A DNA stretch of 30,532 nt from a virus. A program made the position numbers and the translations under genes. The notes beneath the pieces were generated by a model. It ran no database searches, was not told where the DNA came from, and saw only the letters and a program-made list of their open reading frames with translations. The stretch covers positions 1 to 30,532 of IMG/VR virus record IMGVR_UViG_3300020470_002524; one strand, given 5' to 3'. Positions 4,620-30,532 of this stretch are shown here, one piece after another. The first letter of the stretch is position 1. Each line of letters begins with the position of its first letter.

Positions 4620-5861
4620 TTATGTTACTACGTTTATTGTGCCGTTCATCGCAGCATGTATTGTACATTGATAATAAAGTGTATTAGGAGCATCCATAGG
4701 TACTGTCCAATACAAAACACCAGTTCCACTACCAGCTTGACCAGCAGTGTAAGGATTACCAGTTAATCCTTGAGTTGATTGAATTCTGAATGGATGAGCA
4801 CCACCCTGTACAGTATTATCAAAAGCATATGTAAACCCTCTATGTACATAGATGGTTGGGTCATTTGCTGTAGATGGGAAACCTGGTCCTTGGAAAGTAA
4901 AGTCTGATGATCCATTAGCATTAATTTCCCACCAAGTAATAGGACTGCGTGTTACTATCCAATCAGTACCATTCCAGAATAAAGAATCTCCTTGAACAGG
5001 AGTTCCAAACTGACCAGTGGTCATATCCGAATCAGTTAATGCTGCAAAAGTGGTAGGGATTGTACCACTAAAAGCAACAGTTAATGTATCTCCAGAAACT
5101 GATGTGGTAATATCCGTACCACCAGCAACAGTTAATGTATCAGTCTGACTATTTGCTGTAGTGGTCCCCGTATCTCCAGTAACTGTAGCAAATATGTTTA
5201 CACTCGAAATACCAGCATCATCATCTGCAGCAACCCATTTACCTGAACTATTATTCCACTTAAGTACCTGAAGGTTTGTAGGAGCAGTTGATAAATCAAC
5301 ATCACCTAAAAGTCCAATACTAGAATACTCAGTTGCAACTTTTGCTCTTACATTACCAGCACCACCAGCAGTAATATTAATGTTTACATATGGATTATCA
5401 TCACCATTAACAGTGAAGAAATAACCAGGATATGATGCTGCAGTAGGAGCATCTCCAATTAGTGTGTACTGATTCTTATATTTTACTTTAGTCGGTAAAT
5501 CTATAATTCCAGTAGCACCATCAAAATTATTCGTAATACCACCAACAGTAGCAATTAAATCACCACTTCCATTAGGAGCGATAGTAATATTACCATTACT
5601 AGATGATACAATGCTGTTACTATTAACATCCAATGCAGATGTTAACGTATTGTAATCAGCAGGTTCAAACCTGTTATTAGAAGTGTACTTTAAAACTTGA
5701 TTTAATGTTGGGTTTGCAACCGCAACATTTAAATCAGTTCCGTTACCAATAGCACTATAGATCTCATTAAAATTATCATTAATCTTATCTCCACCATCAC
5801 GTAGAGTGTCTCCAGTGTTATCGTTGGCAGCTGCGCCTATGCCGAGTGCTTGTTTAGCCAT
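4620..5861 (-). CDS. Fibre-like virion structural protein (413 aa) with C-terminal cupredoxin-like domain
   Basis: The N-terminus (MAKQALGIGAAANDNTGDTL, then a KINDNFNEIY helix) is the widespread tail-fibre leader seen in T4-like marine phages, usually as ANDGTGDxLRxAFxKINDNFxELY. The middle (about residues 40-300) is low-complexity beta-rich sequence: LSTAPTNLQVLKWN, ADDDAG, then repeated DTLTVAGG/DTLTVAF strands typical of fibre shafts. The last 106 residues (308-413) form a cupredoxin-like domain with H356, C399, H402 and M405. The ATG at 5861 is 26 bases past the giant gene's TGA, and a GATAAATA box overlaps that stop. No strong Shine-Dalgarno is visible. It ends 4 bases before the 1,390-residue gene, so the two are probably cotranscribed and coupled. 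A structural role is likely; the exact position in the virion is unknown. Confidence 0.88.
   Translation of the reverse strand: MAKQALGIGAAANDNTGDTLRDGGDKINDNFNEIYSAIGNGTDLNVAVANPTLNQVLKYTSNNRFEPADYNTLTSALDVNSNSIVSSSNGNITIAPNGSGDLIATVGGITNNFDGATGIIDLPTKVKYKNQYTLIGDAPTAASYPGYFFTVNGDDNPYVNINITAGGAGNVRAKVATEYSSIGLLGDVDLSTAPTNLQVLKWNNSSGKWVAADDDAGISSVNIFATVTGDTGTTTANSQTDTLTVAGGTDITTSVSGDTLTVAFSGTIPTTFAALTDSDMTTGQFGTPVQGDSLFWNGTDWIVTRSPITWWEINANGSSDFTFQGPGFPSTANDPTIYVHRGFTYAFDNTVQGGAHPFRIQSTQGLTGNPYTAGQAGSGTGVLYWTVPMDAPNTLYYQCTIHAAMNGTINVVT
4623..4940 (-). other. C-terminal cupredoxin-like domain with amicyanin-type copper loop (413-aa protein)
   Basis: The domain starts at ITWWEINANG and ends at the C-terminus. 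GGAHPFRIQ gives H356. LYYQCTIHAAMNGTINVV gives C399, H402 and M405 in C-x2-H-x2-M spacing, followed by the final strand as in plastocyanin-type proteins (compare amicyanin HCTPHPFMRGKV). The intervening WTVPMDAPNTLYY strand is also cupredoxin-like. All four expected ligands are present. There is no signal peptide; the domain is the tip or base of a virion protein. Confidence 0.68.
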
Positions 5862-5881
5862 TACTTGCAGAGATTTTTAGT

Positions 5882-5889
5882 TATTTATC
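5882..5889 (-). promoter_or_regulatory. T4-late-promoter-like box GATAAATA before the 413-aa gene
   Basis: The minus strand reads GATAAATA (7 of 8 to TATAAATA), overlapping the TGA stop of the giant gene and lying 20 bases upstream of the ATG at 5861. It would drive late expression of the 413- and 1,390-residue genes independently of the very long upstream gene. By eye, these two intergenic boxes are the only NATAAATA octamers I found on the coding strand. Confidence 0.42.
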
Positions 5890-8800
5890 AGAGTATTTCA
5901 GGATCTATAACTTCTTCTCCATATTGACTTAAGTCAGGAGCAGTCCAGTTATCTGGAACAGAAGTTTCAACATCAACGGATGGGTTTTTATATCCCGTAC
6001 CAGTTGCACTAAGTTCAACACCAGAAACACCGACCAATGCACGGATGTTACCATCAAAACCTGAGATGGAGTCAATTCTAACGGTAGGTCTAGAAGTATA
6101 TCCAGATCCACCACCAGTAATTTGAACTGCCTTAATAAGTCCTGATGTTAGATTTGCGGTTGCTTGACCATCACGTCCGAATACAGATCCAAGGTAATCG
6201 AAAGTAATTAGAGAGTTAGAAGACTCAATAACAGCAACTTCTCTATCAGAAACCTCTCCTTGAATATCCAAGAAGTCTCCAGCTTCTACAGGTGGTACAA
6301 CTTCAGCAGCATCAACGTCTGCCTCAGAACCAACGTAAGAGAATGCAACGAATGTTGATCCCACACGAGGAATTTCAGTAAAGATTATTCTAGAACCAAC
6401 AATTTCAAAACCAATACCCGCTTCTTGTACAACACCATTCAGTGAAACAATGATGTTATTTTCTGGTCTAACGGTTGTGGATTGTACACCTTCAGTTAGA
6501 GTTAGTGAGTAGAATATATCATTACGCTTGAGGTTGAAGGACTGACGTAAGGAATCAAACTCGAATGAGATATCATCCAATTGTCTCAACTTACCTACGT
6601 AGAATCCTGTGAATGATGCTCCCACATCAGGTGCTTCAGTAAACTGAATCTGATCAGAGAACGCTGTATATGCGTTAGAAGCACCTGGAGGTTGTAGAAT
6701 ACCATTAATGAATATCAAGAGGTGTCCAGCAGGATCTGGGAAGTATTGAGTACCATTATTAATAGTAAGTTTGAATGAAGTTGTGGTTCCATCAAATCCT
6801 TTGAATGCTCTCTTAACACGTCCCTTAAGGGTAACAAGATCAATAACAGCAGCCTTATAATCATTAGGTCCAATAATGGTATCCTTCTCAGAGAAGGTTC
6901 CAACAATATCACTCAAATAAAGTCTCTTCGTAGTCGTACCATCTTCAATATCTTGTATCAATGCAGATGCTTGACCTGCGACTGTAAGTTTAGTAGATAC
7001 GGTTGCGTAACCAACAGGGAAATTAAGATTACCAGTAGGACCATAATCACCAACATAATCAGTAGAATTAATAGTTCCTTGAATCATCTGAATATAGATG
7101 AAGTTATTATCAAGATCAACTCCAGTAATAACACCATACGTATTGGTATCCTGACCACCTGCAACTACCTTATAAACTCTATGTCCTTCAGTCCAATTGT
7201 TATAGGTAATGTTATTAAGTGTGATGATACTAATACCAAGTTTAAGGTGTCCAGAAGAAGCAATTCTCTGACCAACTTGAACATCTATTCCATTATATCT
7301 TGCAGCATCAATATACTGCTTAGAAGTCTTAGGATAAACAACAGATGTTGTCTCAAAATCACCAATTAGACTATCAGTATCAATTGTTAATGTACCACCA
7401 GTATTATCTGTAACTGCTGCCTCATTCTTATAGAATGCAACAGGTTGTGCAGTTTGCTTACTATTGTATCCCTTGAATGGAATATCTTCAGTAAATGTAC
7501 CCTTCAGAGTTGAAATCTGAATACGATCTTCAATTGCACTAATCTGAGCAGTAGTAGAGTTTTCTGAACCTACAATATTATCAGTAATTGCCCAAGTTCC
7601 ACCAGTTACTTCAACATCAAGATACTTATAATTTGTATCTTCATGATAACCATAAACAACACCTGTAACTGTTGCATCACCACTCTTAACAATGGTTTCA
7701 TTCATAGTGAATGGGCCATCAGTAATATCACCATCAAAACGGAATCTCTTATAGACCTTAGCAACTCTACCTTCATTAAGAGTTACTGAGTTAATTTCAC
7801 CAGAAATACCACTTTGTGTGCCATAAGCAAACTCAGCAAATTGAATTCCACCACCAACACCATTAGGTATCACTCTAGTTCCATACTTATATGTTGGAAT
7901 TGTTATACCATTGTTCTTAAGAATTGTATTATTATAAGCACTATTACCAAGTTGATTCTTAATAATTCCATTAAGATATCTTATACACCTAGTAATAGAT
8001 AACTTATCATAATCCGTACCCTTCGTGCTATCATAATACTTGTAGAATGAAGCATTAGGAGAAGGACTTGTAAGACCATTATCAAGAGATTTGCCCATAT
8101 ATTCAATGAGTCTCTTCATGATCAATGACTTGATATTATACTCAGTGCTAGTATAGAAAACATCATCATCTTGTGATGTATAAGGATCTAGAGCACCCTT
8201 AGCAAGTTTCGCACCCCAGAGATAAACTCCACTGCTACCAGTACCAGCGTAAACTAGAGATTGTGGTACGTTCTTAACGTAAATGATTTGACGTAAAGTA
8301 CTAAATCCAAATGCGAATGTTGCAGTTGCATAAACTCTAAACCATCCATCACCATGAGGTATAACACCTGTAGAAACATTTGTCATATCACCAAGGTTAC
8401 CTTGTCCATCTATCTGGAAGGTAGTTCCTACAACACCAGTATCAAGAGCAATATCAAAGAGTAATCTTTGTGTAGATACGCTTGTAGCAGGGTCAAGCTG
8501 CATCTCCATTCTTATATGATTATACTCACCAGACTTAGCGAAGAATGATACTGTAAATGTCTGAGTTTGTTCAGCAGAACCTGTATCCCATGTTTCATTT
8601 CCACTATCGTACTTAACTGTTCCAGAGTCTAATGTTTCAAAAGCAGTTAGAGAATAATCTCTATAAACAAAGTGCTCAACATTACCAGTAGTATCCATAA
8701 CCTTTTCTGCTGTTGTTGTTCCATCAGGAGCAACTCCAGTATTAGCAGTTCTAGTTACTGCAGATCCAGTCCAATTAGCAATGAAATCTTCAGGAGAGTT

Positions 8801-11800
8801 CCATAAATTAGCACCTGAAACCTGTCCTTCAATTAAGGAAGTAATTCCAATAGCAGTCTTCTTAGTCTTAATATTACCTGGTTTGTTATACCAGTCATAT
8901 GTTGCACTTACACCATTTGCAGCAACAGTTGCTGTAGCACCAGAACTCTGACCTGTAAGAACATCTCCAACAGCAAAGGAAGTATTTGAGAAGAAAGGAC
9001 CAACAACCATTGAAGGTACATCTTCATCAAATTCTAAACACTTAGCATATCCTTTTCCAGAAACTGCACTATTAGAAGAAACAACAATTTCTCCTGCAGT
9101 AAAGTCTCCAGTAACACTAGTTAGAACAATGTCAATAGCATGAGACTTATCATGGATATTAGTAGTAATAAGATCATGTGAAATATTAGTTGTTATTTCA
9201 CTAACAAAATTATCATAAGTCCAACTACCAGAACCAAACTGAGTATTTACAAGAGATTCTAATTCATTTTCATAGTAATTTTCATTGAATAAAATCTGTT
9301 TAGCAGCAGATCTCATAACTTTTCCGCCTGGAGCAAGCATATCAAGTGCTAAATCAACAAGTTCTCTCAAACGTTGTACTACTTGTCCAGTATTTGTAGG
9401 TGTCTCACTATCTGTATATGGAGTTTCAGTTGTATGAACTGCAACATATTTACCTGATGCAGGACTAGAATTCTTAGCAAGTAAATTATTACCTAATGCA
9501 AATTCACCAAGAGTCTTAATCTGTTCAATTGCAAAGAGTGTTGCTAATAATTCATCTTCAATTTCCTTAAGTTCAGTATTAGCATCAAGATAAAGTCTGA
9601 TAGCAGTAATAGTACTATTATTACCACCTGTCTGTAAATCTGAAATTATACTCTTGATAATCTCTTTGATATCTCTCTGACATGTTGCTTCACCAGTAGT
9701 ACCAGGATAAGTAAATGCTGAGTAATCAGTACCATTAAGTGTATAAGTAAACTCTGCTGTTGTAAGACCAGTAATCTCTGCAGCAATATACTTTCTATTG
9801 AAATAAAGTCTATCAGCAGAAATCTCAAAGTCATCTCCCTTAGGAGCAATAATATCATTTAATGTATTGACTAATGTATCAATTGTAGTTTGTACATTAA
9901 CACAATCTGCAGGACGTGTGATTGCATTTGTTGCTGCAGATACAAATGTATGTGTATAATTACCACCAGCAATTACAGCATTATCTTTCGCAGAAACAAA
10001 TCTATGCTCACTAGTATCTGTAGATGGACCAACATTAATAGTAATTGTAGTATCTGTTACAGAATCAATGTTAATAGCATGGTCATATGCTCTATCTCTC
10101 TTAGCAGAAATACCATTGGTTACTGCTGATACCCAAGTGTGAGCATTTGTATTAGTAGAAGGTGTAGTTTCTAGAACTTGAATAGTAAAGTTATTAGCAT
10201 CTACCTTCGTAACTGGAATCCACTTACCGCTAATTGGGTCAGTAGAACGTGGATAAGTCTTATTAACTGCACCACTACCAGTATCACAACTGAAGGTTAA
10301 TGAATTATCAGCAAGTTTAACCAGATCACCAGTTTCTAATCCATGAGTGGACTTAGTAATATTAACAATACCTGTAGTTGGATTATATGTTGTACCAGAA
10401 GCTGCTGTCATCTGATCAATAGTGCTTCTTGGATATGACTTAGGAGTTGTCCAACCATCACTATTATAATCACAAGTTAATGTTATTGCTTCATCAGCAA
10501 GTTTAATACTTGTACCAGCAGCCAAACTATGTGAACCAATAGTTAGAACCATTACACCAGTAGCAGGTGTATATGCAGCATTGGTTATATCATAGTAAGA
10601 AAGTGGAGTTGTTCCAACATTAACTGTTATAGTATTTGTATCAAATGCAGTTACATAGATGTTCTTATTATAGAATGGATCTGAAGTACGAGGATATGTC
10701 TTATTAGTGCTATTACCATCCATTGAACAAGTGAATGTTAATGAATCTTGAGCAATTGTAATAGCATCACCAACGATAAAGTCATGTGCAACTGTTATAC
10801 CATTAGCAACTCCTGAGACAAATGTATGAGCAACGTTGCTGCTAATAGCACTATTTGGTGCACTATTAACATTGACTGTAATCTTAGAAGCAGTTACAGC
10901 AGTAATATCTAAAATCTTATTATATGCATAGTCACGACCATCAGATGTATTAGCACCACTTGAACGAGGATAAGTTCTAGTTGCAACACCTGAACCTGGA
11001 TTACAAGAGAATGAAAGTGAATTCTCAGCAAGTTTAATCTTATCTTTAGTAGTTAAACTATGAGATCCAATTTCTAATACTAAATCACCAGTAGCAGGAT
11101 CATAGGTGGTTCCTGCTGCAGCAGTATAAGATCCTGCATTAGGAGCAACGGTTAGAACTAAATCACCAGTAGAACCATCATAAGTTGCTGCTGTTGGTGT
11201 ATATTGAACTTGAGTCTGTTGTGTTATACCCCAATCACCAGTAATAATAGCATCTGTATTAGTATCATCAAGTGTACCAATAACAGCCTGTTTTGAATAA
11301 TGTGCTAAACGCTCATGAGCATATTCTGATTGCCAAACTTGTAAACGAATATGCTTAATTTCACCTGTAGTAGAATTAATATATTGATTAGCAACCTTAG
11401 TAACATTGTAATTACCACCTAATTCAACGTCTAAAATTATATCTTCTAATATTGAAGAAAGGTCAGACTTACAACGTAAAGTACCAGCACCACTACCATC
11501 AGCATTTCTAGGCATTTCAGTAGCAAGATCTGGATATCTAGTAAGCATATCAACAGATGCCTTATCTACAATAGCACTAGCATTTAAACGAATTAACTTA
11601 GCAGCATCTCTATATCTACCAACTATATCAGTATCAATCTGATTAGTATAAAGTAAATCATTAGCTGCATCATGATAATCAACATTAAATGGAACTTCAT
11701 AGAATCCATCCAATGTTCCACCAATAAATTCTGCAGCTGGTGTAATTTTTGGTAAGTTTCCTAAATGATCAACTGGACTTGCTGCATTTGCATTAGTAAG

Positions 11801-23800: not shown

Positions 23801-26800
23801 ATAAGGTGAATCTACAACATCAAGATAACTACCTGAAATTACAGGAGAAGTTGCATCAGTAGTCCTAGAAGGATCGAAATAATAAGAAATATTAGTTACA
23901 ATTCCTCTATCACACTTAAGTTTAATTGTAGGTGATGGATTACCTTGTGATACAATTCCAGGAGTTCCAACCCTTTCAATTGAGTTAAATGAATATTCTA
24001 ATTTATAAAGATTATCTTTAGCAAATGATAAGTTTGCACCGACCATTGTAGAGTGAGCTACATCAAAAATGTATTGATGTCCATAATACATCTTCAAAGT
24101 AGGTGATTTAACAAAAACATCAACTGCAGCTACACCAGCTGGAGATCCTGCTCTAAGTGCAGGTGAAGTTGTAGCAACTGCTGGTAATTTATATGTAAAT
24201 TCAATTGGACTTACAATTGTATCAACTGGGAAAGTACCATCATATTCAGTTGCTGGATCAGTTGAATTTACAGAGTTACCATCAATATACAGAATTTCTC
24301 CTGTTGATAAGTAATGCTTACTAGAAGTAACTACATAAACCTCATCTGTATTAGAAACTGCTGTAACTTGTAATATCTTCTCTAAATTTGCTACAAGAGT
24401 AATTTGAGTAACACCTGCTAAATTAGTAAACTGAACTGTACTCTTTGTAGCATTAAATGCTACATTTGCAGGATCTAAAGTAACTACAGAACCAACAGCA
24501 TAATTAGATGCTCCAGAAATAGCATCAATTCTAATAGTATAATCATCAGCACTATATGCCTTAAATTTAGCGAAACTATCAAGATCTCCTACACAAGTAG
24601 CAACTGTAAACTTACAATCAGCATTACCAGTAGTGAGAGTAATTACATCACCAACTTTATAACCAGAACCTGCAGTATTAATTGTTACAGCAGAAACATT
24701 ACCACCAGAAGCAGTAAAGTTAACTGTTAATCCAGTACCAGTACCAGTAGTAGTTGTAGCAACGTTAGTTCCAGATGCAGCATAACCAGTACCTGCTGCA
24801 CTTATAGCACCTAATGTTGCAGGTACATCTCCTACAGTCTTATCTACATCAAAATTATTTAAATCAATATCAAATTGACCTGCTGAAGTATTGGCAATTT
24901 GAGCAAATGTATAACCTGTAATTTCATTAACAACATTAGGCATTGGACCAACAATACCATAAGTACCTTGTTCACTAAATTGCTCTAAAGAAAGTGATCC
25001 AGTATTTAAATCATCTGCCCAACTATTAGTATTAATAGCAAGATAAACAAGATTATTGGGAACATCGGTTTTAACGATATAACCGCTATTAATTGTAGTA
25101 CCACCAGAATTTTTCAATACCAATTTGGTATTATTTGTAAATGCAAATGATTGATTAAGAGTTAATTTTTGAATATTATCAATCTTTAAAGTATTAGTAG
25201 ATTTAAAGAAATAACGATCTTTAACTACTGCAGTTGCTCTTAATTTTTGAGAACCAGGAGAAGGTACTGTAGCAGTTCTAGATTCCCAAATATCTGCTGT
25301 ATAAGTAGGAGTTTGGGTATCTTGACCCATTGTTGTATCTGCAGCTTCATAATCCAAAGATTGTAAACCAGCAGCACCTAATTCAAAATCTGTAGTTGTA
25401 AGAGTTAATGCTGTTCCTGCTACTGGTGTAACTGCTGTTCTAAGGAAACCAATAGTTGTATTTGTATTATTTTCTTGTCCAAGTTTAGTAGCATCCTTAT
25501 CAACCTTAAGAACAAATCCAGCATAGTCAATATAATCATATCTTGCAAGATAAGTAGTGAACCAAGGATCATTAACCCAATTATAGGTAAATCCAAATTC
25601 ACTAGCAGTAGGATACCCAGTTACATCAGTAGGAACTGTAGGTGTCACTGCCCTATTTCTAAGACGGAAATTATCAACAAAGAATTGACCTTGCTCATCC
25701 TTACGGAAATTACCTGCACTACCATTTCTACCAGGGAACTGAGCAATATAAAGATCTTTTGAACCTAAAGAAGTATTAGCAACTGTTAAGGAATATATTG
25801 AATTACCATTAACATAAACTGTAAATGTATTACCACTCTTTTTAACACCAAAGAATGACCAATTATTATCGGCAAACATGGTTGTTAATGTAGATTCTGA
25901 TATAGTTCCTGCTCCATGAGCAGTATTAACAGTTGTTGAATTATTAGTTACAATGGTCTTTAATTTACCATCAGATATATCGTAGTATATCCAAAGACCA
26001 CCAGTTGCAGAAGTTGCATCACCAATAGACATTATTGTCTGATCAGCTTGTGATAATGTTTGTGATGCAGTTGAATCCTTATATATCATAAATTCAACTG
26101 TCCAATCATCATTTAACTTTGTTCCAAGTTGAGCAGCAGTAATTTGAAGATTTCCTTGAACCCATGTGGAATTAGATCCTGCAGGATTGTATCCATAAAT
26201 CTTGGCAACATTATCAGCATAAGTTACTGAATTAGTAGTTGAAGTAGTGGTAAGAGTATAATGTCCTGTAGTATCTGTTTGATTGCCGTCAAATGGGAAT
26301 ATAAACTCATTTCTGTTCCAAGATGTCTGACCACTTATTAATACATCTCCAGAATCATCTGATTCAATTCCATATATGGAAGAACCTTCAATTCTATTAG
26401 AATTAAAATCATTGGTGGTATGATTCTTCATAACACCATTATATCCAATTTTAACCGTATCTAATGTTATTTTACCAGTGGTGCTATTAGTTCTTGTGAA
26501 ACCAAGATTTAAATCACCAAATATATCAATTACACACTTATTAGCAAGTCTTATATCTCTACCAGGTGCAACATAACGATAATTCCATAAGAAAGTTCCT
26601 GCATTATCGAGTTTACCAACCCAGAAACTATCTGTATTAGTAGTATCTGCTTTTAACCTTAATGTGGAAGAAATATAGAATTCATTAAATTCATCTACTG
26701 CAATAGCAGTATCAATGAATGAATATGCACTATGTGTGTATGTTTTGAAGAAATCAACTGTAAATACACTTGTTCCTAGGGTTACTTTACCAAATCCTAC

Positions 26801-29800
26801 ATTAACATCTGTTGCTGTTGCAGTATCTGCTAATTCTGCTGAGAAGTATATTCCACCATCTTCAGAAACAACCAAAGATGTTATTTTCTCTGATTTATTG
26901 GTAGATGAAATTTTTCTCTTTATTGCAAAAGCACCATTAGTATCGATTGATGCAATAAACGCATCATAAGGATTTGATGAATTAGTATTGGTATATCCAC
27001 CAATAATCATCCTTGTATCGGAGAATTTAGCAAGTGAAGTGATTTGATCAGCACGAGTAGCACCAGATATACCAGCATATGCTTTTTGCTTATTAAGTGT
27101 AGCACTTAACCCATTAGATGCTTCTATGTACTTACAAAGTATGATATCAGGGTTATATGCGTTCAAAATCGCAGAATTTGGATTATTAATTCCAACAACC
27201 CAAATATTGCTTCCATCTAAGACAATTTTTGAAAATTCTGTAGATTTTTGACCATCTGTACTAGCTAAGGTCTTTTGCCATTCTTTTACTCCAGAAGCAT
27301 TGATTTTTGCTATAAATGCTTGCTCTTCATCACCAGCAGTATTCTTGGTTTTACCACAAATGTACGAAACCTTAGTAGGAGTTGTAACTACATCATTTAT
27401 CTTGACATAACCATTATTATTAACAAGAGAAACAAAATAATCTGCTTTCTTAAAGACTTGAGGATGTGATAGGATAACTCTAGGATTCTTAGTATACTCT
27501 GATCCAGAATTAATAACATTAACCTTCTCAATAGCACCTACAGTACTTACAACTGCTTCTAATTTTCCAGCTTTACCATCACCATCAATAATAATAGTTG
27601 GAGGAATGTCAGTATTGTATCCAGAACCTGTTTGAGTAATAAGAACTTCTTCAATACCTTTATATTGACGAACGACAAAGGTTTTACCAGTACTATTCAT
27701 AACTGGTGTATAATCAACAAAAACTCTATCTCCAGTAAGTAATTGGTGAGGAACTGAAGTTTTTATTCGACCATAACTAACACCACTAATATTTTCATAA
27801 GTATATTCACTAACTTCTTCACCTGTAATCTTAGAAACACGTGCAGAAACACCTAAACCATCAGTATCAGTATTATCAAATACCAATCTATCATCTACCT
27901 GATAGTTTTTACCTGGGTTTTCAATAGAGAATCCAGTAACAGATGCTTCCTCAAACTTAGTAATAGTTTCAACTTCAATATCAACTTTTGAGTCAAATTT
28001 AACAGCAGGGAAGTAATCAAAAAGTTGTAGAGGTGCTTCCTCAAAGATTTGATCAGGATCATCAATTTCTGCCTGTTCTATGACACCACTTCTATCTTCG
28101 TCTTCTATCTCAAATAAGAGTATCTCACCACCTTCGGTAGTTAGAGCGTTTGTAGAGGCATTTGGAACCCTTGTAACGTCAATATCAACGTTCTCATAAG
28201 GATCTCTATATCTTACAACACCAGTCGGAATATTCTGCTGAACAGCAGCTGCTGCAAGGTTCCAAGGATCTACAACAGAATTATAGTTTGGACCAAGAAC
28301 ATATGGGAATGTAGGATTACCAGCATCTGTAGCATCAATAGTTACAAAATAGCAGTATCTACCTTCAGCAAAGTCTGGTGTTTTACAAAAACGACCATTA
28401 TATTGATCTAAATCTCCTAAAGCAAAGACATATTCATAATCTTCTACAAATTTTCCTGCAGGTTCATCACTTAATGTAGGACCAGCTGTTCTTACTGGAT
28501 TTGGATTAGAATTAGCATCATAAACTAAATCTGACTTTAATCTATAAGAACTATTAAGTCTAACAATAGCAGATGCTTGATCAGTAGGATCTGTGAATCC
28601 ATAAGGACCATATATGGGATTACCATCAAATGCCCACCCAATAATAGGAGAGTGAGCAGTTCCTGATGATTGTTCTTCTAAAGCACCACCAGTAGTTTCA
28701 AATAAGTTATCACCAAGAACATACCTTAATCTTTGAGGATTAGATAGGTGTGCATATTCACCACCATATTGATTATTATATCCCTCAAATACACTACCTT
28801 TAGCACTATCAAATGTAGTTGTTTCTTGAAGATTATAAGTCCATTGGAATACATTTGCAGTAAATGCAGCATCTTGTCCAACAGAAGTTAGGTTAATAAC
28901 AGTTGTTCCTTGAACATATCCAATACCTTTATTTGTAATGGTAATACTAGTAACCCTACCAGCATTTTCACCATCAGTATCAATAGTTGCTTTTGCAACA
29001 GCACCAAATCCAACACCTTGAATACTTACTTCAGGAGCAGTTGTATATCCAGATCCAGCATTAATAATAGCAATAGAAATAATACGTCCATTACTTACAA
29101 TTGGTTGTGCAACTGCACCAGAACCAGAACTCAATGTTACAGTTGGAGTTGATGTATAGTTAGATCCTCCAGAATCTACAGAAATGCTCTTAATTGGACC
29201 TCTAACCGATGCTGTAGCTTCTGCTCCAGTTCCATTACCACCAACAATACTAATTGTAGGTTGAGATGTATATCCAGTACCAGCATCAACAATTAAAATT
29301 CTAGATACTTCACCTTTAGTGATAATTGCTGTTGCAGATGCACCAGAACCACCCCCACCAACAATAGAAACCAATGGAGATGTAGTATATCCACTACCAC
29401 CAGCAGTTACATCAATACTACTTAAAGAACCATTAACAACTACTGATGCAGTTGCTCCTATTCCACTACCACCAGAAATTGTTGCTGCAGGTGGAGATGC
29501 TGCATCATAATCTTGACCAGCATTAGTAATATTAATACCAGTTACAGCACCATAAGTTTTTGTAATTGCAGACTTATAAGACCATATAGAAACACCATTT
29601 ACCCATGAACCAATTGGACCTGCTGTAATAGCATTTTTAGTTGAAATTGTAGACGCAACACGAGGTATTCTAGTTAATTTACGTTGGTTTCCTGGTAAAA
29701 GAGCAGATCCAGGGAAAGGACCAATCTTATAGTTAGGAATACCTGTAGAAGCGATATAAACGTAATTATCGTTGAAAAATGTGTTCTGAATATTGGTAGT

Positions 29801-30532
29801 ATAAGGACCAATAGCATTCAAAACAGCACTATTGTCAGATTTACCTTTATTAAGGTCAATAGACACAAGAATATTACCCTGAGGTACTACTATAGCAGTT
29901 TGAGGTAATTCATACTGGAAAATTTTATCACTATCTCTAGAAGTAACTAAAAATGTTCCATTATAAAGAATTGGGTTTGCACCATAGATTGTAACTTGGT
30001 CTCCAACAAGAACACCATGATTATTCTTACAAGTTACAGTAGCATACTTATTATCAACACCACCAAAGGTAATAGTGTCAACTTCAATTAATTTTTTAAC
30101 ATTATACAACCAAGTTTTCAATTCTGGAGTTGTTGCTGTACCACCTAACTTGGAAATCGTTAATTTATCACCAGGAAGGTAATATGAACCAGTATCAGTT
30201 AATGTAGTCTCTTCCGCATCTACAATACCAACAACATTCATTACAACTTCTTGAGCCGTACCTTTATTGATATAAACTTTAAAATTAGATTTAACTTCCG
30301 TGGCAGCGTCCCATTCCCTTGCAGTAGTATTACTTGCACCACGTGTACACTCAATAAACTGGTTTAATGACTTTTCTTTATATTGAACAACTTCACTATC
30401 ACCAATTAAGAATTCACCATTTCTTTCTGGCCATCCAATTGTAGAGTCAACTGTAATGATATTAGAAGTTGCAGTAAGAGGTTCTGCGAGTTTTGTTTTA
30501 TATGGAACTACAAATTTTCCTTTAATTGTCTC
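5888..30532 (-). CDS. Giant modular virion structural protein, at least 8,214 aa; 5' end off the right edge
   Basis: The frame is open from the right edge to TGA at 5888-5890. I translated 30242-30532 by hand and found 97 further sense codons before the first in-window ATG (30241), so that ATG is internal and the true start is outside. The protein is a chain of adhesion- and structure-type modules: a CTRG module, E1-FCCH-like modules, a split YHYH-like domain, GSGY repeat arrays, a propeller-like region, two LamG-like domains, 28 Cys/YPR repeats alternating with helical modules, a carbohydrate-binding-like jelly roll, and NGVxQ modules. No transmembrane helix, protease or intein signature was noticed. 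It precedes gp8 by two genes; in T4-like cyanophages this region (after gp6) holds large proteins, sometimes labelled VrlC-like. A host-contacting baseplate or fibre role is inferred. Several modules are known in cyanophage structural proteins; the length is exceptional. Confidence 0.93.
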   Translation of the reverse strand, partial: ETIKGKFVVPYKTKLAEPLTATSNIITVDSTIGWPERNGEFLIGDSEVVQYKEKSLNQFIECTRGASNTTAREWDAATEVKSNFKVYINKGTAQEVVMNVVGIVDAEETTLTDTGSYYLPGDKLTISKLGGTATTPELKTWLYNVKKLIEVDTITFGGVDNKYATVTCKNNHGVLVGDQVTIYGANPILYNGTFLVTSRDSDKIFQYELPQTAIVVPQGNILVSIDLNKGKSDNSAVLNAIGPYTTNIQNTFFNDNYVYIASTGIPNYKIGPFPGSALLPGNQRKLTRIPRVASTISTKNAITAGPIGSWVNGVSIWSYKSAITKTYGAVTGINITNAGQDYDAASPPAATISGGSGIGATASVVVNGSLSSIDVTAGGSGYTTSPLVSIVGGGGSGASATAIITKGEVSRILIVDAGTGYTSQPTISIVGGNGTGAEATASVRGPIKSISVDSGGSNYTSTPTVTLSSGSGAVAQPIVSNGRIISIAIINAGSGYTTAPEVSIQGVGFGAVAKATIDTDGENAGRVTSITITNKGIGYVQGTTVINLTSVGQDAAFTANVFQWTYNLQETTTFDSAKGSVFEGYNNQYGGEYAHLSNPQRLRYVLGDNLFETTGGALEEQSSGTAHSPIIGWAFDGNPIYGPYGFTDPTDQASAIVRLNSSYRLKSDLVYDANSNPNPVRTAGPTLSDEPAGKFVEDYEYVFALGDLDQYNGRFCKTPDFAEGRYCYFVTIDATDAGNPTFPYVLGPNYNSVVDPWNLAAAAVQQNIPTGVVRYRDPYENVDIDVTRVPNASTNALTTEGGEILLFEIEDEDRSGVIEQAEIDDPDQIFEEAPLQLFDYFPAVKFDSKVDIEVETITKFEEASVTGFSIENPGKNYQVDDRLVFDNTDTDGLGVSARVSKITGEEVSEYTYENISGVSYGRIKTSVPHQLLTGDRVFVDYTPVMNSTGKTFVVRQYKGIEEVLITQTGSGYNTDIPPTIIIDGDGKAGKLEAVVSTVGAIEKVNVINSGSEYTKNPRVILSHPQVFKKADYFVSLVNNNGYVKINDVVTTPTKVSYICGKTKNTAGDEEQAFIAKINASGVKEWQKTLASTDGQKSTEFSKIVLDGSNIWVVGINNPNSAILNAYNPDIILCKYIEASNGLSATLNKQKAYAGISGATRADQITSLAKFSDTRMIIGGYTNTNSSNPYDAFIASIDTNGAFAIKRKISSTNKSEKITSLVVSEDGGIYFSAELADTATATDVNVGFGKVTLGTSVFTVDFFKTYTHSAYSFIDTAIAVDEFNEFYISSTLRLKADTTNTDSFWVGKLDNAGTFLWNYRYVAPGRDIRLANKCVIDIFGDLNLGFTRTNSTTGKITLDTVKIGYNGVMKNHTTNDFNSNRIEGSSIYGIESDDSGDVLISGQTSWNRNEFIFPFDGNQTDTTGHYTLTTTSTTNSVTYADNVAKIYGYNPAGSNSTWVQGNLQITAAQLGTKLNDDWTVEFMIYKDSTASQTLSQADQTIMSIGDATSATGGLWIYYDISDGKLKTIVTNNSTTVNTAHGAGTISESTLTTMFADNNWSFFGVKKSGNTFTVYVNGNSIYSLTVANTSLGSKDLYIAQFPGRNGSAGNFRKDEQGQFFVDNFRLRNRAVTPTVPTDVTGYPTASEFGFTYNWVNDPWFTTYLARYDYIDYAGFVLKVDKDATKLGQENNTNTTIGFLRTAVTPVAGTALTLTTTDFELGAAGLQSLDYEAADTTMGQDTQTPTYTADIWESRTATVPSPGSQKLRATAVVKDRYFFKSTNTLKIDNIQKLTLNQSFAFTNNTKLVLKNSGGTTINSGYIVKTDVPNNLVYLAINTNSWADDLNTGSLSLEQFSEQGTYGIVGPMPNVVNEITGYTFAQIANTSAGQFDIDLNNFDVDKTVGDVPATLGAISAAGTGYAASGTNVATTTTGTGTGLTVNFTASGGNVSAVTINTAGSGYKVGDVITLTTGNADCKFTVATCVGDLDSFAKFKAYSADDYTIRIDAISGASNYAVGSVVTLDPANVAFNATKSTVQFTNLAGVTQITLVANLEKILQVTAVSNTDEVYVVTSSKHYLSTGEILYIDGNSVNSTDPATEYDGTFPVDTIVSPIEFTYKLPAVATTSPALRAGSPAGVAAVDVFVKSPTLKMYYGHQYIFDVAHSTMVGANLSFAKDNLYKLEYSFNSIERVGTPGIVSQGNPSPTIKLKCDRGIVTNISYYFDPSRTTDATSPVISGSYLDVVDSPYVGTFDLTSTSGATITTGDDVFKFLLPNEPEGNATTSAAKYSTSSLKAVGSISSVRIVNSGGFYTRLPIVSNIISSRKIERVDIKTPGTEYAVGTYTGVPIAGDGEGGLVEITVSDGLDENNQTIPGQISKVVVTSPGIGYTTASIDIEAIDGILGPGTTGSGGELTVVIPPFGTGASIFTKGTSVGKIKKLKNNNFGYDYPHDYTLRPEITFPINAQLTSTSILDSITITNPGSGYSQAPAVLITGGGGSGAIAEAIVKNGRLDQIIVKDSGSGYSSEPTITLASSFNYVVNLDLGLLQFAYPHGIVNGAEITLSVTDIGDGAEFPLASGAIGRLNGVTTYYAIAGTANSLDGDQLKLALTPANAALGDAITFVNAGTGRQTALTSSFGGAAEANVITSTFLEGELVYQGSSLENATATGYVSTNAGWQLGPRILKIVDYVGTFNANERITGVVSKSSGLISDLKIAKGVLEIGSITTTTGQFIDDIGKPSEIIQKIQDSYYYQDFSYAVKSAVSINDWKDILVKNVHPASFKIFGELNLDEYGVIPNKETFFSITKSVELAQEAIVPNIQNFALVEPIYSEFNNTEVLFRQKRLTSSENILTSVVQRVDDISSQFDGIKTSFPLQVDGNNVVANANQLMIVLNGVVQNPGTSFSIQQDKIVFVEPPKPPASVKYVSVGIQQQNTIGVSFDAGTISGIFPTIGNVLVGSVSGTDMIVTSVEGNVIYGFITDMGTGGTGFITNELCNVSATGFNANYLSQTSVTNIGLFTYDETVTNLEGNTAKVSQTNIEQGTEDPIAQLRFTIGSGATTIDVVKYKEDNTTADEVVPAGNFVVGKDYRINNEIIKVQTITNAADYTTLTVLRAQTGTSADSHQEDVPLRKVEILITNTMVLSKTAGTYQSTPGLYDIQLNDYIIGASSGVVAKITSTAVYADPVTGETISQVNISDGSSFFGLLFNRITSQTYPNVVIDDISKSAISVVDFTDNATAINTKFPSTEEISNYVIKYDNASGSIMEDEYIRNYKLKYTGNQGEFIAGEEGKVRKLSFRDKIGSGAFLKGQTIRTRDTKAEVVGYSVADQIVYLGKIGRTKANGQDYHAISFAKDAQLDTAQKKFGESSLLVDGTGDYISVATSTEFGFGTGDFTIELWVRPASVTGVQNLVDLRTADPQVAPTLRLNGTAVEYQSNGSNVVNGGSVAQNTWYHIAVSRASGTTKLFIDGAQIASNTDANNYGTTKPIVIGADLAGANAFNGHIDEVRISDSGRYTAAFTARNGIQQGDANAKLILHLDGLDGQVWTDDWSGGEAFTVGEYFNNDAILATSRVAGVHIYNGGTATDALTFNDSSKKNVTAASYNPETGVLELTIGSHSYTTSNTVTITAGALSFTCSKDGHATSHTYPRTTDPAYNTALAITAVSGTTITVNVGIAREPKGFTGNSQRYINAADLILANKDYIANEAVFLMKSRYPSFSVPGGEVNCEDDVRDILDAVVEDLRNGSNSHVWDAAAFYVNRTSSPVTLNHVETEVPESVYTLEKAQEIVRYVINNTLWDTQGDHKLSQTSDSRITEVDGVSITQITPSNATYDAATGDLVLTKADHGLRTRRKLTATTASFTPSTGILQITTAVSQFTATGATYDAATGEMVITIGAHTLTTDDFARIDDGGITFSCSYGGSTGNGAYPRSSGANTDSGADYAHGRYLPILAVGATTITINVNGGQGAISHNVAHTFVSAVSNSIKIGHGVNNGDSIQLDDHSLTFTCTQDSNSTNHAYPRPQDPGSQGWMVASGSTATTFDINVGKAPAGNWTPTAANFDPATGWLTTTIGDHDMTPGSKFTVKDASYTPATGLMNIEVESDTFNVSDAIYSSVTGDLTLTIGSHGLNKGDKVKVGPNSLFFTCDMDDHQVIHAYPRASDPTYGDTIFIKDTTPTTVTINVGTTPEVGYTPTAAAFTPATGVMELTIGDHDLSLGSSIRIKDNGLTFYCATGGSGDPKTYPRTTTSDKNITAATYTPTTGILQVTSAAHGLTGPSSTTPTGATYDPATGLMTLTKSSHGFVVGDKVKLADGAITFSCTYGAGVHKFVSAATNAVTPNAGAAITPTAATYTPSTGVMVLTFGSAHGLTTSNTVQIAANSLSFQCDLDGYATTHTYPRTTDPQYGQNIAITAVTTTTITVNVGVSSVGSAYPRSIDPISNKWVDIVAADTNTFTIPVGSTSVGDYPHTFVSAVTNGVKKANDVIKIADGGITFTCAQDNNGSNHAYPRSTDLISGKWVIIEDAATDTIDINVGVSPNTTTHTFVSATAGALKAKVDPYQGLPMSIDYVGTTHTVTAGAYNPSTGVITVTIGAGHSFSNGDKIKFAPDSLTYSCALGSGNYSYPRPTDYAYDRWLTISGVSGNDFNVTVLDVIPSTNTSTHTFVSATTNGLTYMDGKIKFNVGISSNTTTHTFVSAVTDAVTTGGNYAHQFAGSASSALMPSHGFAIGDKVMFSEGSLEFQCDMDQSSSVKKYPRTSDPYYNKWLTISNVSNNAFDVNVGATTNTTFNVSAATYSPASGDLTLTIGAHTLDIGDSIKLADNSLTFRCDFNNDNYTTNKTYPRTTGEDYAYNTALPIIARTPTTITINVNGGQGAITDTTNHVFQSATSGAVIAGGNYTHKFLKGAPNGLTKAGETFSLANNSLTFTCSMDQHMSDHTYPRATDPASATSLPVYRDGSLYSATAAQYGPADGKLVITAGKQFTPTSATYEATTGVMKLTIPGHGMANNDRIKIDDDALKFTCSMDSHKSDHVYPRSSDPKSGTWLPLSNVTTDTLDVNVGASPLVAYNPTAATYNPLTGDMSLTIGSHTLTAGTNVKIANAGLTFRCAMDGNFSNHAYPRATDPFYNKPVEIKSVTSTAITLNVGSTPTIEYTPTGATYTPTTGLLVLTIGSHGITTGDSVKLLDGAVTFTCTQGSGNHSYPRTTIDNHTATNGAYNPNTGIMTLTVAGHGMRNGDWVKLDDGAITFKCTYGEEVHNYVSGTVADAVTDNNNATYAVYDATYTPDTGVLVMTIGNHALTTSNTVTIGANKLGFTCALDNNATTHTYPRATDPAHNTALAITAADTSAGTITVNVGTTAGSGTAYPRSTDAISGKWIQVSNVATDTFDIQVLDTIPSTNTNAHTFVSSVTNAIKQKRDKAYDTAVAVTATTPTTITLDVGISSNTTAHTFVSALANGVISGGNHTHTFFPTPATYTPTTASYTPATGDLVLTIADHGMEVGEYIKIADDGISFSCTFGGGGAVTKSYPRSTDPMGGGRYVPITAATGSTITVNALQGTTPTNTDAHTFVSAVANSVTRAIISTGGDYDHIFKYAVPDSISSEKHQLSNGDEIRIENGSLSFTCEKDGNYTTAKYPRHGVDAYANRWLKVSDVTDTAFTVDVGKAALSDDQYTHTFVSALRNSIVKRDNTITFNVGPTPLIKKDVTNGTYDPATGLMVLTIGTHGLAAPTTHTPTGASYSNATGILTLTLANHGFQNGNKVKLDNSAITFSCAGGTGTHTFVSGVTNAITANSGGPFTAAAGTTYDPSNGNLVLEIGSHSLTTSNTISIADNGLTFTCDADNHASNHTYPRATDPASTNTSALNNGVLAISAVSATTITVNVTAVTSSQAAYPRATDPISGVWTPISNVTDNTFDIYVGTTTNIQSHTFVSFATNGLSKANSTVKLTDNSLTFQCNTDSYGSDHTYPRTTIDTHTATAGTAYAPATGVMTVTTSSAHGMKNGDYIKFDDNSLTFKCDQDQQTENHTYPRSTDPFSGKWLPVYEVTNTTFKVQVGISSNTTNHFFQSGTTNGIKQKRDRAYDTALEVVATAATTITLDVGKSSDTSTHQWKSGYVGTDGVIIGGDYVHKFKTSATNAITTGGNYTHTFVTAKANGITVGANAVYLAPESVLFTCTMDGNDKVAAYPRADDPAANQLLEVLSNTKDTFTVNVGASPLGDRYAHTFSSAKSNAVSIAHYDPVGCSDVYTTIGNLMNIIADTLTNANAASPVDHLGNLPKITPAAEFIGGTLDGFYEVPFNVDYHDAANDLLYTNQIDTDIVGRYRDAAKLIRLNASAIVDKASVDMLTRYPDLATEMPRNADGSGAGTLRCKSDLSSILEDIILDVELGGNYNVTKVANQYINSTTGEIKHIRLQVWQSEYAHERLAHYSKQAVIGTLDDTNTDAIITGDWGITQQTQVQYTPTAATYDGSTGDLVLTVAPNAGSYTAAAGTTYDPATGDLVLEIGSHSLTTKDKIKLAENSLSFSCNPGSGVATRTYPRSSGANTSDGRDYAYNKILDITAVTASKITVNVNSAPNSAISSNVAHTFVSGVANGITVAHDFIVGDAITIAQDSLTFTCSMDGNSTNKTYPRTSDPFYNKNIYVTAFDTNTITVNVGTTPLSYYDITNAAYTPATGVMVLTIGSHSLAAGTSIKLADEAITLTCDYNSDGWTTPKSYPRSTIDQMTAASGTTYNPTTGIVNITKSTHGLETGDLVKLADNSLTFSCDTGSGAVNKTYPRSTDPISGKWIPVTKVDANNFTIQVLETTPSTNTNAHTWVSAVTNGISAKRDRAYDHAINIDSVTDTTITINVGPSTDTSEHRFVSAKDNAVIAGGNYTHTFVSAATNAITRPADCVNVQTTIDTLVNTLNDIIAPKGDDFEISADRLYFNRKYIAAEITGLTTAEFTYTLNGTDYSAFTYPGTTGEATCQRDIKEIIKSIISDLQTGGNNSTITAIRLYLDANTELKEIEDELLATLFAIEQIKTLGEFALGNNLLAKNSSPASGKYVAVHTTETPYTDSETPTNTGQVVQRLRELVDLALDMLAPGGKVMRSAAKQILFNENYYENELESLVNTQFGSGSWTYDNFVSEITTNISHDLITTNIHDKSHAIDIVLTSVTGDFTAGEIVVSSNSAVSGKGYAKCLEFDEDVPSMVVGPFFSNTSFAVGDVLTGQSSGATATVAANGVSATYDWYNKPGNIKTKKTAIGITSLIEGQVSGANLWNSPEDFIANWTGSAVTRTANTGVAPDGTTTAEKVMDTTGNVEHFVYRDYSLTAFETLDSGTVKYDSGNETWDTGSAEQTQTFTVSFFAKSGEYNHIRMEMQLDPATSVSTQRLLFDIALDTGVVGTTFQIDGQGNLGDMTNVSTGVIPHGDGWFRVYATATFAFGFSTLRQIIYVKNVPQSLVYAGTGSSGVYLWGAKLAKGALDPYTSQDDDVFYTSTEYNIKSLIMKRLIEYMGKSLDNGLTSPSPNASFYKYYDSTKGTDYDKLSITRCIRYLNGIIKNQLGNSAYNNTILKNNGITIPTYKYGTRVIPNGVGGGIQFAEFAYGTQSGISGEINSVTLNEGRVAKVYKRFRFDGDITDGPFTMNETIVKSGDATVTGVVYGYHEDTNYKYLDVEVTGGTWAITDNIVGSENSTTAQISAIEDRIQISTLKGTFTEDIPFKGYNSKQTAQPVAFYKNEAAVTDNTGGTLTIDTDSLIGDFETTSVVYPKTSKQYIDAARYNGIDVQVGQRIASSGHLKLGISIITLNNITYNNWTEGHRVYKVVAGGQDTNTYGVITGVDLDNNFIYIQMIQGTINSTDYVGDYGPTGNLNFPVGYATVSTKLTVAGQASALIQDIEDGTTTKRLYLSDIVGTFSEKDTIIGPNDYKAAVIDLVTLKGRVKRAFKGFDGTTTSFKLTINNGTQYFPDPAGHLLIFINGILQPPGASNAYTAFSDQIQFTEAPDVGASFTGFYVGKLRQLDDISFEFDSLRQSFNLKRNDIFYSLTLTEGVQSTTVRPENNIIVSLNGVVQEAGIGFEIVGSRIIFTEIPRVGSTFVAFSYVGSEADVDAAEVVPPVEAGDFLDIQGEVSDREVAVIESSNSLITFDYLGSVFGRDGQATANLTSGLIKAVQITGGGSGYTSRPTVRIDSISGFDGNIRALVGVSGVELSATGTGYKNPSVDVETSVPDNWTAPDLSQYGEEVIDPEIL
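5945..6145 (-). repeat. C-terminal GSGY repeat pair of the giant protein
   Basis: LIKAVQITGGGSGYTSRPTV and VSGVELSATGTGYKNPSVDV are the last two copies of the GSGY unit, ending about 25 residues before the C-terminus. Placing this unit at or near a protein end is repeated in the 1,390-residue protein. Confidence 0.7.
6330..6815 (-). repeat. Two tandem NGVxQ modules near the C-terminus of the giant protein
   Basis: Each copy runs F(K/E)FD, a FxL strand, a (L/I)(I/V)xxNG(I/V)(L/V)Q turn, and then an IxFTExPxxGxxFxxF strand. Copy 1 contains LLIFINGILQPPG and IQFTEAPDVGASF. Copy 2 contains NNIIVSLNGVVQEAG and IIFTEIPRVGSTF. A third copy lies at 21765-21965 (MIVLNGVVQNPG). The module is familiar from cyanophage structural proteins; its function is unknown. 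Confidence 0.75.
7820..8165 (-). other. Short alpha-helical module in the giant protein
   Basis: The segment IKSLIMKRLIEYMGKSL, then TRCIRYLNGIIKNQLGN, lies between the jelly-roll domain and beta modules and reads as two or three amphipathic helices with one cysteine. It resembles the later half of the larger helical modules but lacks their DL-x2-GGN motif. Confidence 0.45.
8180..8840 (-). other. Carbohydrate-binding-like jelly-roll domain in the giant protein
   Basis: The segment runs LWNSPEDFIANWTGSAVTRT, then APDGTTTAEKV, then TFTVSFFAKSGEYNHIRMEM, GDGWFRVYATATF and SGVYLWGAKLAKG, ending near DPYTSQ. This layout (NxxxDF, APDGTxxA, FTxSFxAK, GWxRxxxT, LWGAxLxxG) matches the CBM-4/9-like discoidal beta-sandwich often found in phage tail-fibre and structural proteins. 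Glycan binding is plausible by family; ligand residues cannot be judged here. Confidence 0.65.
9180..9905 (-). other. Helical modules C and D (third helical insert)
   Basis: The insert begins CVNVQTTIDTLVNTLNDII. It continues SADRLYFNRKYIAAEITGL, then CQRDIKEIIKSIISDLQTGG followed by N, a helical stretch (LKEIEDELLATLFAIEQI), RELVDLALDMLAPGG, and a partial second copy SAAKQILFNENYYENELESL. It is clearly homologous to helical modules A and B through the N-x2-YI-x2-E helix and the C-x2-DI-x2-I...DL-x2-GGN element. It ends the 9.9 kb repeat region. Confidence 0.75.
9906..11210 (-). repeat. Cys/YPR beta-repeat block 2 (4 units)
   Basis: Four units are recognised by Cys-containing strands FSC, FTC, LTC and FSC and by YPRSSGA, YPRTSDP, YPRSTID and YPRSTDP. 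The block ends with an AKRDRAYD segment and two HxFVSA strands (EHRFVSAKDNAV, HTFVSAATNAI) directly before the helical modules. The unit layout is given under the 23-unit block. Confidence 0.85.
11215..11873 (-). other. Helical module B of the giant protein
   Basis: The module begins CSDVYTTIGNLMNIIADTL, parallel to CVNVQTTIDTLVNTLNDII of module C. It continues AAKLIRLNASAIVDKASVDM, then CKSDLSSILEDIILDVELGG followed by N, and a YAHERLAHYSKQAVIGTL helix. The conserved skeleton is A-x2-LI-x2-N helix, RYP, C-x2-D-x3-IL-x2-II-x-D(V/L), GGN, and an A-x3-Y helix. Confidence 0.75.
11874..19090 (-). repeat. Cys/YPR/HTFVSA beta-repeat block 1 (about 23 units)
   Basis: A full unit of about 90-110 residues runs: ATYxPxTGxLxLTIGxHxL; GDxIKLADNSLTFxC; D/N-x(5-9)-H-x-YPRxTDP; LxIxxVTxxTITVNVG; HTFVSAxTNAI. 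I count 23 Cys strands and 23 YPR motifs here, giving about 105 residues per unit. Many units are incomplete: some jump from the Cys strand straight to HTFVSA (GAGVHKFVSA), some from YPRTT straight to the next ATYxPxTG, and some repeat YPRSTDPISGKW after NVG. The Cys strand and the YPR-preceding His are strongly kept. The fold is probably a chain of small beta domains; I do not recognise a named family. Confidence 0.88.
19100..19525 (-). other. Helical module A of the giant protein
   Basis: INAADLILANKDYIANEAVF, then KSRYPSFSVPGG, then CEDDVRDILDAVVEDLRNGS followed by N, WDAAAFYV, and a later EKAQEIVRYVINNTLW helix. This form is the closest to modules I recall from cyanophage proteins (NRxFIAxEAVxxM, PGFxVPGG, CxxDIxDxIDAxxxDL). 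It interrupts the beta-repeat series after its first unit. Confidence 0.75.
19530..19775 (-). repeat. First Cys/YPR beta-repeat unit (block 0)
   Basis: A single, nearly complete unit: ASYNPETGVLELTIGSHSYT, LSFTCSKDGH, HTYPRTTDPAYNTALAITAV, TITVNVG. It runs directly into helical module A without an HTFVSA strand. It shows the unit can stand alone. Confidence 0.85.
19970..20520 (-). other. LamG-like (concanavalin A-like) jelly-roll domain in the giant protein
   Basis: The segment carries AQKKFGESSLLVDGTGDYIS, then GDFTIELWVRPAS, NTWYHIAVSRASGTTKLFID, and IDEVRISDSGRYTAAFTA. These are the standard blocks of the LamG_3-type fold: FGxxSLxxDGxxDYI, FTIExWVRP, WYHIAVxR...LFIDG and IDEVRIS. The domain is intact and immediately precedes the Cys/YPR repeat region. 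In other proteins these domains bind glycans or other surface ligands, so host adhesion is a reasonable inference. Confidence 0.85.
20640..21070 (-). other. Conserved phage-structural region SSFFGLLFNRI in the giant protein
   Basis: DGSSFFGLLFNRITSQTYPN, then IDDISKSAI, then MEDEYIRNYKLKYTG and a glycine-rich FIAGEEGKVRKLSF. I recall the SFFGLLFNRI element from large structural proteins of T4-like cyanophages. It sits between the TRG-like module and the LamG domain. Its role is unknown. Confidence 0.5.
21765..21965 (-). repeat. Internal NGVxQ module of the giant protein
   Basis: SSQFDGIKTSFPLQ, MIVLNGVVQNPGTSFSI and IVFVEPPKPPASV form a third copy of the NGVxQ module found in tandem at 6330-6815, about 15 kb away in the same gene. 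Confidence 0.7.
22080..22320 (-). other. YYYQDFSYAVKS helix region in the giant protein
   Basis: YYYQDFSYAVKSAVSINDWK, then NVHPASFKIFGEL. The pattern YYQDxSYxxKS...W...VHPAxFxxFG is a recurring element of marine T4-like structural proteins. It marks the switch from the GSGY-rich part to the NGVxQ module. Confidence 0.55.
22945..23670 (-). repeat. GSGY repeat cluster (4-5 divergent units)
   Basis: Units begin VRIVNSGGFY, VDIKTPGTEY, VVVTSPGIGYTTA, ITITNPGSGYSQAPAV and IIVKDSGSGYSSEPTI. One keeps the full glycine run GGGGSGA. They are separated by irregular spacers such as GDGEGGL and GPGTTGSGG. Same unit as the six-copy array near the N-terminal side. Confidence 0.75.
24190..24380 (-). other. 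E1-FCCH-like module (second copy)
   Basis: VYVVTSSKHYLSTGEILYID, a YDGTFPV turn, and IEFTYKLPAVA follow the pattern strand-H-x-L-x2-G-(E/D), xxI-xG, YxGTFxV, F-x-Y-x-LP. This is often matched to the FCCH domain of ubiquitin-activating enzyme E1 in phage annotations; there is no ubiquitin link here. Confidence 0.5.
24575..24830 (-). repeat. GSGY repeat pair with threonine/glycine-rich loop
   Basis: LGAISAAGTGYAASGTNVAT is followed by a TTTTGTGTG loop and a second unit VSAVTINTAGSGYKVGDVIT. The usual GGGGSGA run is replaced by TGTGTG. Confidence 0.65.
25635..26320 (-). other. LamG-like jelly-roll domain (first, more divergent)
   Basis: The segment reads FIFPFDGNQTDTTGHYTL, then DDWTVEFMIYKDS, a GLWIYYDISDGKL strand, DNNWSFFGVKKSGNTFTVYV followed by NG, and FFVDNFRLRNRAV. 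This is the same block order as the clearer LamG domain (start strand, xWTVExMIY, WxFxxVxxxGNTxxVYVNG, xxDNFRLRN). It follows the propeller-like region directly. Confidence 0.7.
26320..27460 (-). other. Beta-propeller-like repeat region in the giant protein
   Basis: Recurring blades of about 50-70 residues follow the pattern (Y/I)-x-(S/G)G-x-T...DAFIAKID-x2-G-x3-W. Examples are YICGKTKNTAGDEEQAFIAK, IIGGYTNTNSSNPYDAFIAS, and YISSTLRLKADTTNTDSFWV followed by GKLDNAGTFLWNY. A last blade has DVLISGQTSWN. This resembles the SBBP-type or quinoprotein-like propellers of surface proteins. I can identify four or five blades; whether the ring closes cannot be judged. Confidence 0.6.
27470..27960 (-). 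repeat. Divergent GSGY units around an FCCH-like strand
   Basis: Three units are visible: VTGFSIENPGKNYQVDDRLV, VLITQTGSGYNTDIPPTIII and VNVINSGSEYTKNPRVIL. Between them lies GRIKTSVPHQLLTGDRVFVD, an FCCH-like PHxLxxGDxV turn. Confidence 0.6.
28245..28690 (-). other. YHYH-like domain, main part (giant protein)
   Basis: HSPIIGWAFDGNPIYGPYGF is an almost perfect YHYH-family core. It is followed by SSYRLKSD, then LDQYNGRFCKTPDF, GRYCYFVT and FPYVLGPNYNS. The position of the family's YHYH tetrapeptide reads YCYF, so both histidines are missing. The N-terminal piece of the domain lies about 0.9 kb upstream, beyond the six GSGY repeats. Confidence 0.75.
28880..29555 (-). repeat. Six tandem GSGY/GGSGA repeats
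   Basis: Units of about 37 residues begin VTGINITNAGQDYDA, LSSIDVTAGGSGYTTSP, VSRILIVDAGTGYTSQP, IKSISVDSGGSNYTSTP, IISIAIINAGSGYTTAP and VTSITITNKGIGY. Most continue with a VxIxGGxGxGAxAxAxI strand pair. This is the longest uninterrupted array of the unit in the window. Confidence 0.85.
29560..29665 (-). other. YHYH-like domain, N-terminal piece (giant protein)
   Basis: TKNAITAGPIGSWVNGVSIW followed by SYKSA matches the GPIGxxxNGVxIxxYK start of YHYH-family domains. It runs directly into the six GSGY repeats, after which the domain resumes. Confidence 0.6.
29895..30055 (-). other. E1-FCCH-like module (first copy)
   Basis: YATVTCKNNHGVLVGDQVTI, then YNGTFLVTSRDSDKIFQYEL. This matches the HGxxxGDxVxIxG, YNGTFxVT, FxYxLP pattern seen in many phage tail proteins. 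Confidence 0.55.
30242..30532 (-). other. In-frame N-terminal extension of the giant protein with a CTRG module
   Basis: Manual translation from the right edge gives 97 sense codons, beginning ETIKGKFVVPYKTKLAEPL. It includes STIGWPERNGEFLIG, VQYKEKSLNQFIECTRG and REWDAATEV, and joins without a stop to the methionine at 30241. The content is typical of the TRG-type module elsewhere in these proteins, so it is coding and not leader sequence. Confidence 0.85.

Follow-up and report, generated by a model that had tools for sequence, protein, structure and literature searches.

The 30,532-bp stretch of DNA analysed here (the window) probably encodes the gp7-type baseplate wedge protein of a T4-like marine cyanophage (Kyanoviridae), a giant protein that sits in the gp7 slot and carries a very long adhesin-like extension, within which a repeat array would vary in frame by recombination and exchange. 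The window is a complete IMG/VR record, and the 5′ end of the giant gene falls beyond it. The features of the window are as follows, residues and codons being counted from the first visible codon of the giant frame.

5888–30532, minus strand: giant virion structural protein, 8,214 codons plus stop, 5′ end off the contig
20800–30532, minus strand: conserved N-terminal arm, residues 1 to ~3,245 visible (phrog_701 matches, collinear map, length of the N flank)
28328–28912, minus strand: YHYH domain, residues 541–735 (Pfam PF14240, E=3.3e-32)
20024–20440, minus strand: Laminin-G/concanavalin A-like lectin domain, residues 3365–3503 (Pfam PF13385, E=3.7e-23)
10031–19768, minus strand: 'YPR' repeat array of ~78–80-aa units, residues 3589–6834 (unit HMM, YPR motif counts, AlphaFold2 model)
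19067–19495, minus strand: non-YPR spacer, residues ~3680–3822 (self-comparison)
12897–13272, minus strand: putatively exchanged repeat stretch, codons ~5754–5879 (DNA identity to P-SSM7, L160 and L151/L148)
5891–9907, minus strand: conserved C-terminal region, residues 6876–8214 (about 57–58% identity with most isolates)
4620–5861, minus strand: gp9-like baseplate wedge/tail fibre connector, 413 aa (Pfam T4_gp9_10_N, E=1.1e-10; phrog_677; gp9 annotated there in relatives)
443–4615, minus strand: baseplate wedge subunit (phrog_708, T4-GC 399), 1,390 aa, with a YHYH domain (Pfam and phrog match, order in relatives)
3–407, minus strand: gp8-like baseplate wedge protein, N-terminal 135 residues, running off the contig (phrog_438, E=5.8e-53; gp8 there in relatives)

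The giant frame runs off the end of the contig after 8,214 codons without a stop, the sole stop in its translation being the terminal one. For the given base composition, chance would put ~592 stops into one frame (P about 10^-267); 411–1,230 are present in each of the other five frames of the same stretch. The first ATG in the window would give 8,117 aa, with 97 open codons 5′ of it. These codons are coding, since residue 1 of the visible protein matches position 798 of the phrog_701 profile; the same residue aligns with residues 792–809 of complete relatives. The preliminary description had proposed from the letters a single open frame of at least 8,214 codons that starts outside the window and continues through these 97 codons, and both points are borne out. 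The position of the start was taken from relatives, because the record ends with the window and none of the best 80 matching IMG/VR loci (74–80% protein identity) is a near-identical contig over the first 500 residues. In complete relatives the start codon lies 790–809 residues upstream of window residue 1, and therefore the full protein is predicted to be ~9,010 aa long (~1 MDa), with ~797 N-terminal residues off the contig. Provided that the genome has a typical size of ~180 kb, the gene would take up about 15% of it, in agreement with the notable genome share suggested earlier.

A frame of this length could in principle arise from an assembly that joined two phages or expanded the array. 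The contig is cut at both ends, codons 1–3,797 have no near-identical second contig, and the third-position GC goes up past codon ~7,200 from 0.12 (0.09–0.15 before this point) to 0.20–0.23 in the last ~1,000 codons (~7,201–8,214; window 5891–8932), all of which would suit such an error. Against it stands an independent contig from another assembly, L175 (IMGVR_UViG_3300020472_002684), whose match is limited to the 3′ half of the giant frame; over codons ~3,798 to about 8,104–8,214 it is collinear with the window as one open frame without stops at 86–88% DNA identity, and it agrees in array order and in C-terminus, with the gp9-like gene coming next. Exact DNA repeats within the array reach 30 bp at most, too short for an assembly from short reads to collapse it. 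Alignments with P-SSM7 and S-SSM5 continue through residues 3,387–3,700, and many other contigs carry comparable frames. The dN/dS against L175 over the matched half, 0.28, also speaks against an artefact; more exactly, it is 0.275 over 4,200 codons, ranging from 0.15 to 0.40 per block and from 0.23 to 0.40 per block across the array, with the lowest value of the giant frame, 0.15, in the last 700 residues. As judged from these substitution patterns, the half open to this comparison is under purifying selection. The giant frame is thus read as a real gene and an assembly artefact as unlikely, indeed highly improbable, the first 3,797 codons being backed by relatives only (about 66–80% protein identity).

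The three genes downstream of the giant frame, i.e. the gp9-like, phrog_708/GC399 and gp8-like genes, lie in the same order as in Kyanoviridae isolates, where the locus reads gp6, giant gene, gp9-like gene, GC399 and gp8; in the window the position of gp6 is beyond the contig end. The match of the gp8-like gene to Pfam Phage-Gp8 (E=1.8e-4) is below the cut-off of that model. These neighbours agree with the earlier placement of a 5′-truncated gene in a structural locus of T4-like type next to gp8. Both the gp9-like protein (residues 356–405; 4647–4796, minus strand) and the phrog_708 protein (residues 401–461; 3233–3415, minus strand) contain the pattern H...C-x2-H-x2-M, in which the ligands are ordered as in plastocyanin-type copper sites. 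Across the loci searched, a slightly looser H/C/H/M pattern was counted in 114 distinct sequences, and Pfam and PDB searches with the two regions returned no significant match. Going by this pattern, cyanophage baseplates possibly have a cupredoxin-like domain in the gp9-like and phrog_708 proteins.

T4 gp7, the 1,032-aa baseplate wedge initiator, follows gp6 just as the giant gene does in isolates, and the two appear to share a core motif of ~30 residues; T4 gp7 is about nine times shorter than the giant protein. The motif, DFYxxKGxxxSxxxLFKLLYxE, is located in the N-terminal part of relatives, a region that falls off the window, and seems to recur at residues 729–760 of T4 gp7. In hhalign comparisons the N-terminus of the relatives aligns with T4-like gp7 over 32 columns at 44% identity (E=1.6e-6), and E is 4.7e-7 when N-termini of shorter relatives are used. 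The Pfam model Baseplate_wedge (PF23786) also matches the N-terminal part of the relatives above its cut-off (E=1.7e-7). The gp7 match is short, ~30 residues, and was non-significant in a PDB profile search (E=0.059); the AlphaFold model of the motif region (pLDDT ~30) has too little confidence in its core for a judgement. Three Pfam models that do match T4 gp7 (Gp7 helical, domain V and domain VI) gave no match in the first 800 aa of L016, one of the relatives, or in the window pieces scanned. In a 5,319-codon frame of L182 (IMGVR_UViG_3300008097_000003, 3011–3913), only ~130 residues lie between the DFYxxKG motif and the helical N-terminal part, and the relatives of the giant protein carry a beta-rich insertion of ~500 residues at this place.

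According to a paper of 2020 (PMC7029224), these phages lack T4 gp7 and have VrlC in its stead. On that account the gene would be a cyanophage-specific tail fibre or adhesin gene in the place of gp7, with no homology to it, and VrlC would be the functional gp7. The shortness of the gp7 match, the occurrence of the repeat units in genes annotated as tail fibre (phrog_5342) and the presence of YHYH and lectin-like domains are all compatible with this account. The position of the gene directly after gp6 in isolates, as for gp7 in T4, the motif apparently common to T4 gp7 and the above-threshold PF23786 match speak against it, and we regard it as unlikely. The sequence evidence presented here is at odds with the reported absence of gp7, and a gp7-type wedge protein is the reading that we prefer.

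The window protein is a member of a family already deposited. The phrog_701 profile (6,136 positions; phage virion structural proteins) covers nearly the whole frame, from position 798 to position 6135 at the C-terminus. The orthologues of isolates have 6,171 aa in S-SSM5, 6,180 in S-SM1, 6,603 in P-RSM4, 7,041 in S-P4, 7,124 in P-SSM7, 7,312 in P-SSM4 and 8,573 in P-RSM6. IMG/VR contigs with a close C-terminus have frames of 7,974–8,458 codons, and those with a more distant N-terminus reach 9,553–9,560 codons, the 9,560-codon frame being read across two adjoining sequence pieces. The comparison with marine myovirus genomes that the preliminary description had suggested finds the same gene in cyanophages known at 6,171–8,573 aa, and its statement that T4-like proteins near gp8 extend to a few thousand residues at most does not hold for cyanophages. 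A very large phage protein it is, at ~9,010 aa predicted, and an unusually long one even within its family; a record size was considered and rejected in view of the longer IMG/VR frames. The window protein is a long but ordinary, non-record member of phrog_701. No paper describing these genes as encoding giant proteins came up in the literature searches.

The orthologues of P-SSM4 (gp7, AAX46881.1), P-SSM7, P-RSM4, S-P4, S-SSM5 and S-SM1 (phrog_701; T4-GC 397/643/969) share the gene order, have N- and C-terminal arms collinear with those of the window protein at about 51–68% identity, and contain the same repeat units; they differ in having 2–9 near-full units and 6,171–7,312 aa, against 22 units and ~9,010 aa in the window. 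P-RSM6 CPXG_00128 (YP_007675165.1) and the IMG/VR relatives of 9,553–9,560 codons share the gene position and a similar size, and the array of P-RSM6 is expanded as in the window (15 near-full units), whereas their arms are 42–43% identical and an extra ORF lies ahead of the gp9-like gene.

Mass spectrometry identified the S-SM1 orthologue (SSM1_102, 6,180 aa, T4-GC 969) in purified virions (PMC3037559), and it is for this orthologue only that presence in the virion is shown. The long product might also be split by proteases once translated, giving several virion proteins and no chain of ~1 MDa in the particle. Phage structural proteins can undergo proteolytic maturation, which gives this idea some ground; on the other hand, no cleavage signal came to notice and the frame is unbroken in every complete relative examined, and we consider cleavage quite improbable.

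The N-terminal arm is 66–68% identical to those of S-SSM5, P-RSM4 and S-P4 and has modules common to other baseplate proteins. Flank lengths are conserved across relatives (N ~4,000 aa, C ~700 aa), and the variable middle between the arms has 1,494 aa in S-SSM5 and 4,238 aa in the window. Within this middle, the YPR array of the window gives 37 matches to the unit HMM, 22 of them near full length, and 28 YPR motifs, interrupted by non-repeat spacers; by self-comparison the spacer at residues ~3680–3822 is related to a later one at ~6329–6463 (window 11144–11548). Near-full units number 2 in S-SSM5 and S-SM1, 5 in P-RSM4, 7–9 in S-P4, P-SSM4 and P-SSM7, 15 in P-RSM6 and 22 in the window. Unit number tracks protein length broadly but not strictly and explains part of the length spread only. 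Across the aligned sequences, the length differences sit between the conserved arms, mainly in the YPR array. AlphaFold2 predicts the units as all-beta (pLDDT 84). Foldseek of the repeat unit against PDB gave no match to a solved fold (best E=0.13), and against viral models the named significant matches are cyanophage structural and tail proteins. A similar YPR-type repeat sequence is present in the phrog_5342 'tail fiber protein' family (CPMG_00024 of MED4-213, for example), whose members are separate genes outside the gp6–gp8 block. Two further matches were set aside as probably due to chance, one of the array profile to iota-carbonic anhydrase (E=0.0044, 40 columns; weak) and one to Pfam E1_FCCH (below cut-off).

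A 376-bp stretch of the array (~125 aa, 12897–13272) has 90% DNA identity with P-SSM7 and 91% with L160 and L151/L148, with sharp edges and background identity on both sides. Its distance to the stop, taken from the coordinates, is ~1,490 codons in P-SSM7 versus ~2,460 in the window, and L175, otherwise collinear, lacks 106 of its codons. This displaced P-SSM7-like stretch suggests an exchange of repeat units between phages. Recombination between repeats together with exchange of stretches between phages would be the simplest account of the change in array length.

Taken as a gp7-type wedge protein, the giant protein would work as follows. Its N-terminus is probably a neighbour of gp6 within the wedge, a placement that the gp7-core motif, seen in relatives only, supports but does not prove. 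The remainder would reach outward as a series of beta domains (YHYH, lectin-like, repeat array), which may extend the baseplate rim and present carbohydrate-binding surfaces to the host envelope. The Laminin-G/concanavalin A-like domain is a possible carbohydrate binder, and the YHYH and lectin-like domains and the predicted all-beta repeats all fit an outward, host-facing extension with a putative binding function. In-frame growth and shrinkage of the array, driven by recombination among its repeats and by stretches passing from one phage to another, would give ~9,010 aa in the window versus 6,171 in S-SSM5. It is tempting, though speculative, to go further: the T4 wedge initiator may have been turned into an adhesin of ~1 MDa whose repeat number is set by exchange of stretches between phages, with baseplate reach or host range following array length.

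Frames of 8,000–9,500 codons are therefore to be seen as normal in some cyanophage baseplates and not as assembly errors. Much of the length of the giant protein is traced to the repeat array between conserved arms, and the P-SSM7-like stretch offers a concrete example of repeats apparently displaced between phages. The disagreement with PMC7029224 bears on which cyanophage protein fills the role of T4 gp7.
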